A stretch of 64,000 nt of DNA from assembly GCF_009725165.1 (NCBI RefSeq), contig NZ_WNZW01000010.1, positions 62,001-126,000 on the forward strand, given 5' to 3'. Under the pieces are notes generated by a model, which saw nothing but the letters and a program-made list of their open reading frames with translations, searched no databases and was not told the DNA's origin. The first letter of the stretch is position 1. The number at the start of each line of letters is the position of its first letter. The translations under genes and the position numbers were made by a program. This DNA is from Paenibacillus woosongensis (GTDB taxonomy: Bacteria > Bacillota > Bacilli > Paenibacillales > Paenibacillaceae). Positions 52,898-59,290 of this stretch are shown here, in pieces.

Positions 52898-54610
52898 TCA
52901 TTGACCGACCGGCAGCCATTCCAGCCAATCGATGACGATAGTGCCGCTTATGACCTCTATTTTTAAATCGAACTCTCCGCTGGAGGATATCGTTTGCTGC
53001 CCCGCCGAGATGATGCTCCAATCTTGTGAGGACACGTTGATGGTCTGGTGCCTATAACGATCCGTATGCACAACGAGTTCAGCAATCTCGTCGATACCCT
53101 CGTGAGTACCCTTGTCAGCACTCTCGGTCAAGGCGCGCAGCTTGATTTGCAGCGTGTAAGCGGCGGGAGACTCACACAAGAACGGGTATGCGACCCAATC
53201 TCCCGCAGTAAGTGTCACGCAGAGGCGATGCTCTTCGTTCCATTCCTCTTCCGGCTTCAAATGATAATTTGGCGTACCATCCTGGGCCATGAGGAACCCG
53301 ACGTGGATGCCGTCATCTGGACGAAATACGTTAGGCTGCTCCTTGGACGTTAAAGCTTGCAGGCCAGCTTGCTCTCTTTCGCTGTCAGCGGTGGCGCCCC
53401 AGCTAATGTTTTGGCCCCGATGACCATAATGCTCGGCAGGCATGCGAAGCGGCAGCTTACGCTGAACGGCTCGCAGCACGCCTGGGAGATAGTCGCAGTT
53501 GCCAAGCAGAATGTTGTCCAGGTATTCGTTAAGGATGGCTGCTGAAGCTGCTTGATCCGGTTTCTCGCCGCTGCCATCCACACAGTTCAAAATAAGATCC
53601 CAGTGATGTGGCCGGCGGATGGAGCAAGGGGAGTTAACTGTGTCGAGTTTTTTCCAGGTCCAGAAGTTCCATGAAATATGATGATCCTCATATAAACCAA
53701 AGGCTCCAGCATACCAGCCCAAGCTGTTCTCACCGCCTTCACCCATGTATATAGGCATGTTCAGCATTTCCCGCTTCTCTAAATAGGGGGCGATTCCTTC
53801 CTGGTCAGGACTGCTCCAGTACTTGTGGAATTGCAGCAAAAGATTGTCGTCGAACATATCTTCGGCGGTAAACATCGACCAGTCGGTTGCCTAATGGGCG
53901 CCTTCAATGATAATCATATGCTTGTCGTCGACCTCGCGGATCGCGGCGGTGATTTCCTTGTAGAGCGGCATGAGCTTGCCGTTATGCATGTTGAACCATT
54001 CCGGAAGCGGCTCGTTCAGCAGATCGTAGCCGCCGACGATCCATTCATCCTTATAACGGTCGGCTAGCATTCTCCACAGCTCGACGGTACGCCGCCAGTA
54101 ATCCTCGTTAGTGAACAGCTCCGGCTGATCATGTTCGGAGTCGTCGATATTCGCTCCCGTTTGCCCGCCTGGTGCTCCGTGCAGATCAAGGATGACGTAC
54201 AGGCTGTATTTTTTGCACCAGCCAATAAAACGATCGATTAAAGCGAGGGTATCCGGGTTGAATCTTACAGGATCGCCCTCCTCCAGCAGCCAGCGCGCAT
54301 TGATTGGCAGTCGAATGGAGTTCAAGCCCTCCGCAGCGATTTGGCGCACGTCATCCTCGGTTATAAACCGTTCGCGAAACGTAACCCAAAATTCCTTGGC
54401 AACGGCTTCTCCGATCAAGTCCGTGATGAGCTTCTCGATTCGTCTTGGCCGATCGGCGTTGGTCGGCGGGAACTTCCACATATAACCTTCCGGCAGCAGC
54501 CAGTTTCCCAGCCCCACGCCGCGCAGCAGCAGCTCCTGCCCGTCTCCGTTCACAATTCGCTGGCCTTCGGCACGCAAGTAGCCTTTTACCCGTCCATCGT
54601 CTCTGTACAT
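52898..54610 (-). pseudogene. GH5 cellulase-like gene interrupted by one in-frame amber codon
   Basis: ATG 54610 (MYRDDGRVKGYLRAEG, with GAAAGGTGTGA upstream) opens a GH5 domain: VGLGNWLLPEGYMWKF, the acid/base glutamate in DLLNEPLP, and later the nucleophile candidate in IYMGEGGEN. At 53893-53891 the frame hits TAG, exactly where the text reads EGAH-stop-ATDWSMF. A tryptophan (TGG) is expected, so a single G-to-A change explains it. The same frame then continues 327 codons to 52898, ending in a CBM6-like carbohydrate-binding region. Nothing else is broken. No signal peptide is seen, so it is probably cytoplasmic. Could be a recent nonsense mutation, a sequencing error or readthrough. Confidence 0.85.
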
Positions 54611-54806
54611 TGCTTGCTCACACCTTTCGGTTGAAGTTGAGGTAGTCAAAGTGGACATTCAGCCTTAATATAGTCCTAATTTTGCCGGTTTGGGTAGGTC
54701 TCGAATTTCGGGTACGATTTTTCGGGTGGAAGAGAAAAAGACTCCTGTATTCTACCGGAGCCAATGGTATAGACTATATTATTTTTATGTAAGCTAAGAA
54801 TAAGGA

Positions 54807-54842
54807 AACCCATCGCATAGGATTTGTTCCTAACGATGGGTT
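54807..54842 (-). terminator. Terminator after the peptide/regulator cassette
   Basis: AACCCATCG (54807-54815) pairs with CGATGGGTT (54834-54842), with TAGGA/TCCTA inside. On the minus strand it is followed by a T-rich stretch, 57 bp after the stop of the 39-codon ORF. Confidence 0.65.
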
Positions 54843-54898
54843 ATTTGATGCAATTTACTAATGTAACTGAGATGAACTATTAGGGTCAGGATTCAACT

Positions 54899-55018
54899 CT
54901 ACGTTCCGTGCAGTGCTGAATTGCTCGTTATTTTACTGTCTGATGAGTATTGGGTAGGAATAAATAAAGTAAATGCAAAGCTAGCTGTCAAAAGAAGTAA
55001 CAGGATTTTTTTCTTCAT
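54899..55018 (-). CDS. Candidate secreted signalling peptide precursor (39 aa)
   Basis: A short ORF read by hand. It begins MKKKILLLLL and continues with a hydrophobic segment to about residue 20, then a polar tail ending SNSALHGT before TAG. AAAAGGAG lies 9 bases upstream of the ATG, a perfect ribosome site placed inside the 3' end of the regulator gene. The ORF overlaps that gene by 38 bp in another frame. Length, basic start, Sec-like core and small polar C-terminus match Phr, PapR, NprX and AimP precursors, which are exported, trimmed to 5-10 residues and re-imported by Opp. The mature form is unknown. An in-frame ATG six bases upstream is possible but too close to the ribosome site. Confidence 0.7.
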   Translation of the reverse strand: MKKKILLLLLTASFAFTLFIPTQYSSDSKITSNSALHGT

Positions 55019-56372
55019 TCTCATAAACTCCTTTTACTATAGTTTTATATTTTAGCAAGGTTTCTTGGGATGCCATATCTCTATATCGTTCGAATAATCC
55101 CATACATTTAAGCATACACTTTTTGTTATTTATATAGGAGGATTTTTCAAGTCCTTTTAGCAAATTCACGAACCCCGCGGTGTAAATTTCCTTCTTAAGA
55201 TAATAGTAAGCTAAATTGTGTAATAATAGAGACAAAAGGTTTTCGCTATAATGGTTTTTGTTGATATCAACAGTCTTGTCCTTATTCACATAAGCTGCAA
55301 GTTCAGACTCAAAATGCTTAAGAATATGATCTACATTGAAATGGTATTGATTAGCTGCTTCCATAATATTAAATAAAGCTGGGATAAGTTCATTTTGTTC
55401 TTTTTCGATATATGCAACGTACTCTGGGAGTACACTGGTATCACCACACATTAGCTTAATCACATATGTATTGGCCTTTGCCCATTCCAGAAAGACACCT
55501 TTCCAGTGCCGGGTGTTCTCATCATCTTCTTTAACCCAGCTAAAATCAGCATAGTAGGAGGTATAGTGTAGTGCCTGCTTATAATCTCTTCGTGCATCAC
55601 AAACATCAGCGTGAAATAAGTTGGCCAATGCTATATATGTAAACAGCGGCCTGCTAGGTTTAGATTTTTCTTGAATCTTCACAGGTCGCGCCGTGAAGTA
55701 TAAAGTTCTGGCCAAATAACCCAGTCTGTTTGCTATCATTTCTACTTTATCCCACTGGTGTAAAAAACGGTATACATTTCCTAAGTCTCTCAAAGCATCT
55801 AATTGAACAAGTTCATCCAATCTTTCTACATAGGGCTCGAACAGAATAGCTGCTTTATAATTATCCTCTTGATTGCTTCCCAAGCGGATTGAAAATAGTC
55901 GATATTGGCAGAAGGCGAGCCGTTCTGAATGCTGATGCTTCTCGCTTAGAGCCACATTTTCAAACAATAGTTCTGCTGCTTTGCGCTTGTTCTGCTGGTA
56001 AAGGTCTTCCGCTACATCGAATAGAAGGGGAGAGTACATCAGATTATCCATTAACAAGCTGATCACTTGCTTCATACAGTCCAATTTATCGAGATCTGCA
56101 CAGCGGTATAAGAACGGCTTGAATCTTCGCCAGTTGGGAATGTTTTGGCTCAAATGGTCTTTAATATATTGCTCGTAAAAATATCCCTCAGGGTAATTCA
56201 TGACCCTTGTAAGGCGGTCCAAATGATCTACTGTTAATGTTTTGTTTTTATTTAATATGGAACTCAGTGTGCCTGCGTTAATATTGGAGCTACTTGCTAA
56301 TTTCCTTAGATTCATATTTTCCTGGTTCATGAAATCGACGATATGCTGGAGAACTGAAGATGTATAGCTCAT
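54981..56372 (-). CDS. HTH plus helical-repeat transcription regulator (RRNPP-like)
   Basis: A 463-residue protein. Residues 1-65 are an XRE-type HTH (LRKLASSSNINAGTLSSILNKNKTLTVDHLDRL). The other 400 residues are a continuous helical array with TPR-like pairs (AFCQYRLFSIRLGSNQEDNYKAAILFEPY, AYYYLKKEIYTAGFVNLLKGLEK). That layout is shared by NprR, PlcR, PrgX and AimR, which bind a short peptide in the TPR groove and so switch DNA binding. The start ATG 56372 has AAGGATG close upstream, better than ATG 56381 inside that site. AT-rich coding DNA. The peptide ORF overlaps its 3' end. Targets are unknown; the divergent U32 gene is a candidate. Confidence 0.75.
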   Translation of the reverse strand: MSYTSSVLQHIVDFMNQENMNLRKLASSSNINAGTLSSILNKNKTLTVDHLDRLTRVMNYPEGYFYEQYIKDHLSQNIPNWRRFKPFLYRCADLDKLDCMKQVISLLMDNLMYSPLLFDVAEDLYQQNKRKAAELLFENVALSEKHQHSERLAFCQYRLFSIRLGSNQEDNYKAAILFEPYVERLDELVQLDALRDLGNVYRFLHQWDKVEMIANRLGYLARTLYFTARPVKIQEKSKPSRPLFTYIALANLFHADVCDARRDYKQALHYTSYYADFSWVKEDDENTRHWKGVFLEWAKANTYVIKLMCGDTSVLPEYVAYIEKEQNELIPALFNIMEAANQYHFNVDHILKHFESELAAYVNKDKTVDINKNHYSENLLSLLLHNLAYYYLKKEIYTAGFVNLLKGLEKSSYINNKKCMLKCMGLFERYRDMASQETLLKYKTIVKGVYENEEKNPVTSFDS

Positions 56373-56482
56373 GCAAATCATCCTTCTTCAGTATTTCTTG
56401 TCAAACTGTAAGTGTTTAGAAAATGGAAAGGCCCTTGTCTTCGAAATATGTCTTTTTATTCTTTGATTTCTAGTATATTACA

Positions 56483-56511
56483 AATATAAACAATATTTGA
56501 TGATTGGTCAA
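56483..56511 (-). promoter_or_regulatory. SigA-type promoter of the regulator gene
   Basis: On the minus strand TTGACC (56511-56506) and TATATT (56488-56483) are 17 bp apart, giving a leader of about 105 nt. The 332-bp divergent gap 56373-56704 is AT-rich; I could not pick a clear plus-strand promoter in it. Confidence 0.55.
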
Positions 56512-56704
56512 TTCTATTTAATAAGATGTTTATATTATGTCATAATTTGATCTCAAGCTATACGAAAGAAGTTCATCCTTTGGAAGGGATTAAAGCTAGA
56601 GTCTGCAGGGAATGTCTGATAAAATAAATAAGTTATCGTCGTTTCAATTTAAATTTAAGGGAAATCAATATACGAGGGCCGCTCGGCCGCTCGGGGAGGA
56701 ATAT

Positions 56705-59290
56705 ATGAGCAGCACAACATTAACGCGGCAGGACGTGGAACTCTTGGCGCCGGCGGGCGATTGGGACTGTATGCGGGCCGCGGTGGCGAATGGGGCGGAC
56801 GCGATTTTTTTTGGAGTCGAGAAATTCAACGCCAGAGCCCGGGCGAACAATTTTCGCATGGACGAGCTTCCGGAGATTATGGCCTTTTTGCACAGCTACG
56901 GGGTTAAGGGATTCCTGACTTTTAATATTCTCGTATTCGAGGATGAGCTGCGGGATGCGGCGGAGTTGATCGAGGCCTGCATCGATGCGGGCGTAGACGC
57001 GGTGATCGTGCAGGATTTGGGACTGGTCAAAATGATTCGCGAAATGTCGCCGGACTTTCCGATTCACGGCTCGACCCAGATGACGATTACTTCGCCGGAA
57101 GCAGTCGAGTTCACGAAGCCATGGAATATGGAACGTGTCGTGCTGGGCCGCGAGAACAATTTGAAGCAAATCCAGAAAATCGGAGAACAGGCAAAGCTGC
57201 CGATGGAAGTGTTTGTTCACGGGGCGCTTTGCGTATCGTATTCGGGACAATGCCTGACCTCGGAGATGTGGGGCGGGCGCTCCGCGAACCGGGGGGAATG
57301 CGCTCAGGCCTGCCGTCTCCCGTATGACCTGATCGTGGACGGGGAGCAGAAGCCGATGGGGGATGTGGCGTATTTATTGTCTCCCAAAGACCTGGCAGCG
57401 ATTGATTTGATGCCGGAGCTGATCGAGGCGGGTGTGACGTCTTTTAAAATCGAAGGCCGCTTAAAAAGCCCGGAATACGTAGCTAACGTTGTGAGCAAAT
57501 ACCGCAAGGCGATTGACCGTTATTTTGACGGGGAGGATGCCCGGCCGTCGAAGGAAGAGGTTCGGGAGCTGCAGCAGAGCTTCTCGCGGGGCTTTACGCA
57601 TGGATTCCTGGAGGGCACGAACAATAAGAAGCTCGTAGAGGGCACGTTTCCGAAGAGCCGGGGCGTGTATTTGGGCCGGGTGGAGCAGGTGCTGCGCGAC
57701 GGCGTTGTCTGCCGCCTGGAGGCTCCTGTGAAGCGCGGAGACGGGATTGTCTTCGATGCCGGGGATCCGACGAAAAAAGAAGAAGGCGGACGTGTCTATG
57801 ATTTGCGCCGCAAAGGTGTGAGGCTGGAAGGCGAAGCGGACGAGAAGTGGATCGTCGATATCATACCGGGACGCAATGACGTCGATCTGCGCAAGGTTCA
57901 CGTCGGCGACCGCATTTGGAAGACGAGCGATCCCGCGCTGGATAAAAGACTGCGCCAGACGTTCGAGACGGACAAGCCATACCGGGTATTCCCGGTGCAT
58001 GTCCGCGCTGCAGGGCGGGCTGGCGAGCCGCTGGCGACCTTCTGGACGGATGTGCAGAAGGGAACAACGGTGCGCGTCGACTCCGAGCTGCTGCTCGAGA
58101 CGGCGCAAAAACGGCCGATGGACGGCGCCCTGCTCGAAGAGCAGTTCGGCCGTCTCGGCGGCACGCTGTTTCAGCTCGAGCAGCTGGATGCATCGCTGCA
58201 TGGCGATGTGATCCTGCCGATGCGAGAGCTGAACAGCATCCGCCGGCGCGCAGTGGAGCTGCTCGCCGGCGAACGGCCAAAGCCGCCCGTTTACGTGAAA
58301 CGGGCGGACGCCGCCACCGCCGCCACAGCTGTGCTGGGCGCGGCGGGCGCTGGCGCACCACGCGCAGCGGGTGCGCCTGAAGGCGGCGGCGCGGGCTTGG
58401 CCGCGCGCCGCGCCTTGCGCGGTGAAGCGGAGCTCACCGCGCTGTGCCGCAGCCTGCCGCAGGTGCAGGCTGCGCTGGAGGCTGGCGTAGGGATGATCTA
58501 CGCCGACTTTGAATTCATCAAGCAGTTTCCGGCAGCGGTGGAAGCCGTTCGGGCTGCTGGCAAACGAATCGCGCTCGCGACGCCGCGCATCCATATGCCG
58601 GGCGAGAACGGCTACCATAACAACATCCTGCGGCTTGAGCCCGATGCGGTGCTGGTGCGCAACACCGGGGCGCTGTACTATTATTTGCGCCACCGGCAGG
58701 AGAATCCGGACTCGAAGCATCCGCAACTGATCGGCGACTTCTCGCTGAATATTGCCAACCACAAGACCGTGGAGCTGTTTCTGGAGACCGGCTGCGATAT
58801 CGTTACGCCATCCTACGATCTCAACATCCAGCAGATGGTGGATTTGCTGGGCAACAGCCAGAGCCTGGCTGGTAATATGGAGATCGTCATTCACCAGCAC
58901 TTGCCGATGTTCCATACGGAGCATTGCGTCTACTGCACCTTCCTGAGCGAGGGTACGGACTATACGAACTGCGGCCGCCCATGCGAGCAGCATAGAGCAT
59001 CCCTGCAGGATCGTATCGGCATGTCCCATCCGGTTCGTGTTGATGAAGGCTGCCGCAATACGGTATATAATGCGATCGAGCAGTCGGGTGCGGAATATTT
59101 GCGGAACTTCCTGGAGCTTGGGGTACGGAGCTATCGTGTCGAATTCTTGGAGGAAACGCCGGAGAAGGTGCATGAGGTCATCCGTCTCTACACCCAAGCC
59201 CTACGCGGTGAAATTAGCGGCACCCAGGTATGGAAGACGCTCAAGGCGACGAACCAGCTCGGCGTGACGCGTGGACAGCTGATCAAGTAA
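56705..59290 (+). CDS. Double U32-family protein with DUF3656 (RlhA-like)
   Basis: An 861-residue protein. The first U32 domain starts VELLAPAGDWDCMRAAVANGADAIFFG and has the cysteine set CVSYSGQCLTSEMWGGRSANRGECAQACR. A DUF3656 region covers about residues 430-540. An Ala/Gly-rich linker of very high GC (near 58300-58430) leads to a second U32-like domain with HCVYCTFLSEG and NCGRPCEQH. U32 proteins were called collagenases, but E. coli RlhA hydroxylates 23S rRNA, so the role may be RNA modification. I choose ATG 56705 (GGGGAGGA just upstream); ATG 56612 would add 31 unlike residues. Followed by a terminator. Confidence 0.85.
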   Translation: MSSTTLTRQDVELLAPAGDWDCMRAAVANGADAIFFGVEKFNARARANNFRMDELPEIMAFLHSYGVKGFLTFNILVFEDELRDAAELIEACIDAGVDAVIVQDLGLVKMIREMSPDFPIHGSTQMTITSPEAVEFTKPWNMERVVLGRENNLKQIQKIGEQAKLPMEVFVHGALCVSYSGQCLTSEMWGGRSANRGECAQACRLPYDLIVDGEQKPMGDVAYLLSPKDLAAIDLMPELIEAGVTSFKIEGRLKSPEYVANVVSKYRKAIDRYFDGEDARPSKEEVRELQQSFSRGFTHGFLEGTNNKKLVEGTFPKSRGVYLGRVEQVLRDGVVCRLEAPVKRGDGIVFDAGDPTKKEEGGRVYDLRRKGVRLEGEADEKWIVDIIPGRNDVDLRKVHVGDRIWKTSDPALDKRLRQTFETDKPYRVFPVHVRAAGRAGEPLATFWTDVQKGTTVRVDSELLLETAQKRPMDGALLEEQFGRLGGTLFQLEQLDASLHGDVILPMRELNSIRRRAVELLAGERPKPPVYVKRADAATAATAVLGAAGAGAPRAAGAPEGGGAGLAARRALRGEAELTALCRSLPQVQAALEAGVGMIYADFEFIKQFPAAVEAVRAAGKRIALATPRIHMPGENGYHNNILRLEPDAVLVRNTGALYYYLRHRQENPDSKHPQLIGDFSLNIANHKTVELFLETGCDIVTPSYDLNIQQMVDLLGNSQSLAGNMEIVIHQHLPMFHTEHCVYCTFLSEGTDYTNCGRPCEQHRASLQDRIGMSHPVRVDEGCRNTVYNAIEQSGAEYLRNFLELGVRSYRVEFLEETPEKVHEVIRLYTQALRGEISGTQVWKTLKATNQLGVTRGQLIK

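Follow-up and report, generated by a model that had tools for sequence, protein, structure and literature searches.

A probable chromosomal Alo quorum-sensing pair in Paenibacillus woosongensis

The DNA studied here, a window of 64,000 nucleotides from Paenibacillus woosongensis, very probably carries a chromosomal quorum-sensing pair of the Alo type. It consists of a receptor gene, aloR, and a short pro-peptide gene, aloP, which overlaps the 3' end of the receptor gene. The initial annotation had described this as a candidate new peptide quorum-sensing cassette, made up of an RRNPP-like regulator and a pheromone gene that overlaps it. The cassette itself holds up, given the homology to Alo and the presence of the peptide gene in 6/6 orthologues. 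It is not new however: the Alo family was published in 2020, and the receptor aligns over its full length to a receptor linked to the peptide AloP13. Judged by sequence homology, the pair is a member of this already described family, and not a new kind of system.

Table 1 Features of the aloR-aloP locus, in positions of the window
Feature	Position	Strand	Basis or remark
Divergent peptidase U32 gene, conserved neighbour	56705..59290	+	Alternative start ATG 56612
aloR promoter TTGACC-17-TATATT	56483..56511	-	Promoter scan, conservation
Element AAATATTGTTTATATTTGTAATA over the -10 region, candidate AloR operator	56476..56498	-	Identical in 6/6 orthologues
aloR receptor-regulator, N-terminal HTH and TPR superhelix	54981..56372	-	463 aa; homology, model
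Shine-Dalgarno AAAAGGAG, inside aloR	55028..55035	-	9 nt before aloP ATG at 55018
aloP pro-peptide gene, 39 codons, overlapping aloR by 38 nt	54899..55018	-	ORF, conservation, selection
Predicted mature signal SALHGT, last six codons	54902..54919	-	Inferred from AloP13 = last six residues
Terminator hairpin 3' of aloP	54807..54842	-	Folding

The Alo (AloR-AloP) family was described by Voichek et al. from P. polymyxa ATCC 842 (PMC7425212). Its features are given there as a receptor with HTH and TPR, and a pro-peptide of 32-50 aa that lies immediately downstream, sometimes overlapping. The pro-peptides are secreted and processed at the C-terminal end; AloP13 is SHGRGG, the last six residues. A spo0E-like gene is under the control of AloR13, and such a gene is found downstream of 6 Alo systems in P. 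polymyxa. The alo13-alo14 locus consists of adjacent receptors plus a spo0E-like gene. In P. terrae NRRL B-30644, 40 AloR were counted, and essentially all Alo hits were in the Paenibacillaceae. For RRNPP_Detector (PMC10075063), AloR is among the clusters already known, and one more Paenibacillaceae cluster, number 8, is reported. In the accessible portions of published work on AloR/AloP and RRNPP in Paenibacillus (including PMC9765709), no treatment of the window locus was found.

The window holds the Alo features: an AloR-homologous receptor with an N-terminal HTH and a C-terminal TPR region, and a short ORF of 39 aa that starts at -38 from the receptor stop. Since the exact end HGRGG had no match in the 147 loci examined, the published AloP13 pro-peptide was taken as query. 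It was found in 2/60 genomes of the P. brasilensis genus (L077, G041), at 96% and 83% identity. The receptors directly before it match the window regulator with 256 bits (L150) and 251 bits (L151). In a global alignment with the L150 receptor, 152/456 positions are identical (33.3%), at 98% coverage of both. This receptor stands in for P. polymyxa's own AloR13 by virtue of its peptide, which is 96% identical to the published one. As in the published alo13-alo14, L150 also has a second receptor next to the first, and downstream a gene whose product matches the Pfam SpoOE-like domain (52.8 bits). In P. terrae NRRL B-30644, where the published number of AloR is 40, a search with the window regulator at E<=1e-10 gave 41 matches, including partial ones. 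On a plasmid of P. polymyxa ATCC 842 there is a receptor with 43.8% identity, which overlaps an annotated 43-aa hypothetical gene.

The regulator ORF spans 54981-56381 (-). Counted from the first ATG (56381) it encodes 466 aa, and from the ATG at 56372, 463 aa. The HTH and helical repeats noted earlier in these 463 aa were found again. The HTH is matched by phrog_2439 (transcriptional regulator, E 4.1e-7, residues 14-145), and Pfam HTH_26 reaches 20.7 bits, slightly under its cut-off of 22. An AlphaFold2 model of the receptor alone, based on a 25-row alignment (pLDDT 88.8, pTM 0.81), is all helical, with an HTH region (helices 22-29/33-40) and TPR-like helix pairs up to residue 455.

In comparisons of this model with known folds in the PDB, the best TPR match is LGN (Z 18.1), which outranks the quorum receptors though it is unrelated. 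These follow with NprR in complex with NprX (Z 15.3, rmsd 5.8, 279 aligned), RapI (Z 15.0), RapH (Z 13.7), AimR (Z 13.2, rmsd 18.2, spanning the HTH and TPR regions) and PlcR with PapR (Z 12.4, rmsd 11.5). The best rows of a Foldseek search are eukaryotic TPR-type proteins. With unrelated TPR proteins above the quorum receptors, and eukaryotic ones on top in Foldseek, the fold demonstrates TPR only. The model therefore supports a TPR peptide receptor, and would not by itself single out RRNPP.

The product of aloP is MKKKILLLLLTASFAFTLFIPTQYSSDSKITSNSALHGT (39 aa), and its start lies 38 nt ahead of the end of the regulator gene. Both the overlap and the ribosome site 9 bases before the ATG agree with what had been noted before. 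There is an alternative in-frame ATG at 55024, which would give 41 aa, and which is only 3 nt from GGAG. The gene can be followed through six orthologues with receptor identities of 70-100%: the window (L001), P. bouchesdurhonensis (L006), L007, L008, P. ihumii (L009) and P. fonticola (L010). In all six the aloP ATG sits at exactly -38 from the receptor stop, with AGGAG or better ahead of it, and in five of them there is also an earlier in-frame ATG (-44).

Past the overlap, in codons 13-39, dN/dS over these six is 0.26 in the aloP frame. The other two frames there give 0.86 and 1.58, with 4 and 12 stops in all. Within the gene, the signal core (codons 13-22) has a dN/dS of 0.16 and codons 23-35 are looser at 0.58, while the last four codons are constrained, with a pN/pS of 0.18 at saturated synonymous sites. 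The overlap itself (codons 1-12) has a low synonymous divergence (pS 0.26), which is expected where two frames are read and is not decisive alone. One codon was removed from the L007 row of the alignment, and because six sequences are few, all of these selection figures are rough. By its constant position in the six and its substitutions beyond the overlap, aloP is a genuine gene, and purifying selection acts on it in the peptide frame.

The C-terminal hexamers of the six are SALHGT, GGLHGG (twice), FLQHGA, LAQHGG and FTQHGG, or five kinds in six orthologues. The window peptide ends in T, the other five in G or A. By analogy with AloP13, the mature signal of the window is most likely SALHGT.

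The scan of relatives kept 80 of 431, and the nearest named relatives among these are P. bouchesdurhonensis (85%), P. ihumii (72%) and P. fonticola (70%). Among the matches listed, at least one receptor homologue (E<=1e-20) is present in 40/40 genus genomes searched, the window's own included. The window's genome encodes four of these receptors, and an AloP-like ORF accompanies every one.

The receptor sample holds 130 rows from 115/117 loci (among the matches listed), in which one gene can occur repeatedly; the pairs L006/L038, L009/L039 and L010/L040 sample the same place twice. With repeats removed there are 110 receptors, and 109 of these have at least 260 nt downstream. An ORF was called AloP-like if it starts with ATG between -50 and +60 of the receptor stop, has 24-70 aa, K or R in residues 2-8, a hydrophobic core and a Shine-Dalgarno of at least 4 bases. 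The control consisted of 363 other ORFs of at least 200 codons, from the window and the further loci sampled. The 30 loci of P. terrae NRRL B-30644 are outside the peptide filter, and inside the control set and the tree described below.

Among the matches listed, an AloP-like ORF was found at the 3' end of 74/109 distinct receptors, versus 6/363 of the other long ORFs. The filter does have false negatives: for example, the L026 peptide, which ends in NHGGGAL, does not pass. A looser filter finds a peptide for 83/110 distinct receptors, again among the matches listed. In that same set of 83, 61 peptides finish with HG and 0-4 further residues; if I or N is also accepted in place of H, the number is 77. 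Control ORFs passed the looser filter 25 times, and none of these 25 ends in HG plus 0-4. The commonest starts relative to the receptor stop, among the matches listed, are -38 (31), -4 (17), -11 (9) and -44 (8). The initial annotation had proposed looking for homologues without a short ORF, and for selection in the peptide frame. The close orthologues all have the ORF, the distant ones mostly do, and the selection past the overlap is in the frame of aloP.

Some loci are more complex. Tandem second receptors lie 3' of receptor and peptide in L040, L042, L043, L045, L048, L081, L095, L098 and L100. For the second receptors of these nine loci the AloP filter finds no peptide, and they recall the published aloR13-aloR14 neighbours. 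Receptor matches occur in 34 plasmid records, three of them from outside the Paenibacillaceae, labelled Brevibacterium (2) and Arthrobacter (1); these three may be mislabelled, or match only weakly and in part.

The published Alo13 layout includes a spo0E-like gene, and such genes were sought with an HMM grown from two seeds, up to 900 nt downstream on the same strand. They follow 24/129 distinct receptors among the matches listed, the own-genome paralogue L004 being one of these. The window's contig is without a spo0E-like match, and other contigs account for all 4 in the genome. In the receptor tree, the part that holds the window orthologues has 44 rows, of which 0/44 are flanked by spo0E. 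The fork has a support of 91, with several open forks. Opposite the midpoint root are the L150/L151 receptors (AloR13/14 type), L003, L004 and the receptor of a Brevibacillus phage. The tree is a quick build with a midpoint root and several long and open branches, made without seven loci, receptors with less than 700 nt downstream, and incomplete matches. From the 0/44 and the position in the tree, the window copy is an AloR of the larger subgroup, and has no spo0E neighbour.

On contig C47 of the same genome, the paralogue L004/L154 consists of an Alo receptor and peptide and then a Spo0E-like gene, which is the published Alo13-type layout. Brevibacillus phage SecTim467 (L036:1125-2948) encodes a receptor close to AloR13 (295 bits). 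An annotated Spo0E gene immediately precedes the receptor gene, and at the other end a 45-aa ORF overlaps it; this ORF did not pass the AloP-like filter.

A promoter scan of 53500-57500 gave 10 sites versus 7.2 expected. The aloR promoter is one of the two best matches, which both score 10 of 12. Near aloR, a block running from AATTGACC to AAATATTGTTTATATTTGTAATA is common to 6/6 orthologues, while the U32-side half of the upstream alignment aligns in 4. The 23-base element is present once in the window (0 expected). Across the genome, aloR is the one place with an exact copy, and allowing up to 3 mismatches adds no other; a reversed-pattern control also gives one match within 3 mismatches. 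A 17-base part of it agrees with its own reverse complement at 12/17 positions only.

A similar promoter, with a TTGAC start and at most 2 mismatches to TATATTTGTAATA, is upstream of 25/131 receptors, a count that stands without a shuffled control. The 3' half of the element is therefore a family feature. In these 25 genes the shared promoter, TTGAC-17/18-TATATTTGTAATA, reaches beyond the -10 box, suggesting a common operator in the larger AloR subgroup. We infer from this arrangement that AloR may regulate itself through its own promoter. According to PMC7425212, AloR13 acts on a downstream promoter instead of its own.

On the other end of the pair, the hairpin at 54807-54842 (-) folds with -20.7 kcal/mol and a z of -4.65, with 0/200 shuffles as good. 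The terminator that was earlier said to close the pair is in this way borne out by folding. A consensus terminator scan, which returned 2 terminator-like sites versus 4.3 expected in shuffles, does not include it. Judged by eye, the hairpin is at the same place in relatives. A search of 54500-57000 for RNA elements gave no Rfam match up to E 0.1.

The surroundings of the pair are largely conserved. The U32 gene is upstream of the receptor in 6/6 orthologous loci (window species, L006/L038, L007, L008, L009/L039, L040), and in the window the starts of aloR and U32 are some 330 bp apart. In P. ihumii (L039) and P. fonticola (L040) about 1.3-1.4 kb of other sequence lies in between, with the pair and its promoter kept. 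In P. fonticola that stretch (L040:2560-4001) has two small ORFs which, by eye, we take to resemble a MntA/HepT-type pair. On the pair's other side, for the four loci with enough sequence to judge, uvrA is in the window (by its NCBIfam name), L038 and L039; it is not within 4 kb on that side in P. fonticola L040.

The only other gene named between uvrA and U32 beside the pair is GH5/CBM35. This GH5 cellulase/CBM35 gene, at 52898-54658 (-), has an in-frame amber stop at 53891-53893 that is absent there from same-species L005 and from L007, and which is a strain-specific break or a sequencing error. The gene was considered as a part of the system and rejected, since only two of the six orthologous loci, those of the window's species and L007, carry it here. 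L008 gives a weak match over a short length, and L006/L038, L009/L039 and L010/L040 give no match.

Conserved neighbours invite the reading that the divergent U32 gene is the main target of the pair, controlled from the intergenic region between them, and U32 was indeed named as a possible target in the initial annotation. U32 as a conserved neighbour stands, in all six orthologous loci, and so does the short distance between the starts in the window. As a target it fares less well. The spacing grows in L039 and L040, yet the aloR promoter block is there in 6/6 and the U32-side half in only 4; the one genome match of the 23-base element is also at aloR. Control of U32 as the pair's main role is thus unlikely.

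Three other readings concern the nature of the pair itself. The short ORF could have arisen by chance, or could encode a small membrane protein with no part in signalling, the regulator then being an orphan. It is true that 35/109 homologous receptors did not pass the AloP filter (among the matches listed). Yet the position in 6/6 orthologues, the dN/dS, the constrained HG end and the enrichment over controls make this reading very improbable. A hydrophobic toxin peptide with an XRE antitoxin would also put a short hydrophobic peptide beside an HTH regulator, and there are weak matches to NCBIfam HigA (16.1 bits, cut-off 47.7) and phrog_1381 (24.1 bits). These span residues 16-71 at most however, and a toxin-antitoxin pair is not what one would make of the full-length homology to the AloP13-linked receptor, the TPR superhelix and the conserved HG end after a signal core; this reading was rejected as highly improbable. 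Finally, an arbitrium (AimR-AimP) system on a cryptic prophage would have a similar two-gene layout, and the model does match the AimR structure. But in the window, as in two relatives, the pair has uvrA on one side and U32 on the other, and only 2/50,697 phage records match the receptor, both of them Brevibacillus phages at less than 30% identity. Arbitrium has next to no probability and was rejected as well. That no phage genes surround the pair, as had been stated, is correct for the nearest genes (uvrA, GH5/CBM35 and U32), which is as far as this check extends.

This leads back to the Alo pair and to how it would work. The genes aloR and aloP would be co-transcribed leftward from a single promoter near 56483-56511, ending at the hairpin. 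AloP would leave the cell by means of its Sec-type signal sequence, and trimming outside would reduce it to a C-terminal fragment, SALHGT being the likeliest form. This fragment would then return via an oligopeptide permease; the genome has oligopeptide-binding proteins, with 4 matches to SBP_bac_5. Inside, it would bind the TPR groove of AloR and alter how AloR acts on DNA. The likeliest target would be the own promoter of AloR, with further targets elsewhere. For the window pair, the steps of export, cleavage, uptake, binding and transcriptional effect are modelled on the Alo family.

A bolder proposal is somewhat doubtful, and is offered tentatively. This could be an Alo branch uncoupled from spo0E, in which the receptor reads the near-palindromic AAATATTGTTTATATTT over its own -10, forming a self-regulating switch with unlinked targets. 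Since the signal hexamers differ between species, most neighbouring species would not understand one another.

What is added is a defined Alo pair with a predicted signal, a promoter and a terminator, in a branch without a neighbouring spo0E-like gene. Such a gene is the Alo target shown so far, and with it absent, what Alo systems control becomes directly testable. The locus also keeps a single place in the chromosome, and the peptide it encodes varies from species to species. New here would be the branch without adjoining spo0E, the conserved own promoter and the predicted signal SALHGT.

Several known systems look like this pair. NprR-NprX consists of an HTH and TPR receptor with a short exported peptide, and NprR is a fold match at Z 15.3. 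The regulator has no sequence match to it among PDB chains (phmmer, E<=1), and the window peptide scores 14 bits versus a cut-off of 33 for NCBIfam NprX. PlcR-PapR and Rap-Phr are TPR peptide receptors with exported peptides, though Rap is not known to carry a DNA-binding HTH. Here too fold matches exist, and phmmer finds no regulator match among PDB chains at E<=1. AimR-AimP has a receptor and peptide layout like that of the window pair, which unlike it has no phage context among its nearest genes and a neighbourhood that is kept in relatives.

From published Alo systems the window pair differs in having no neighbouring spo0E-like gene, and in the receptor tree it branches apart from the receptors linked to AloP13. 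What it has in common with them is a full-length homologous HTH and TPR receptor, a pro-peptide of 39 aa where 32-50 aa was published, an HG near the C-terminal end (published SHGRGG, here SALHGT), and a home in the Paenibacillaceae.
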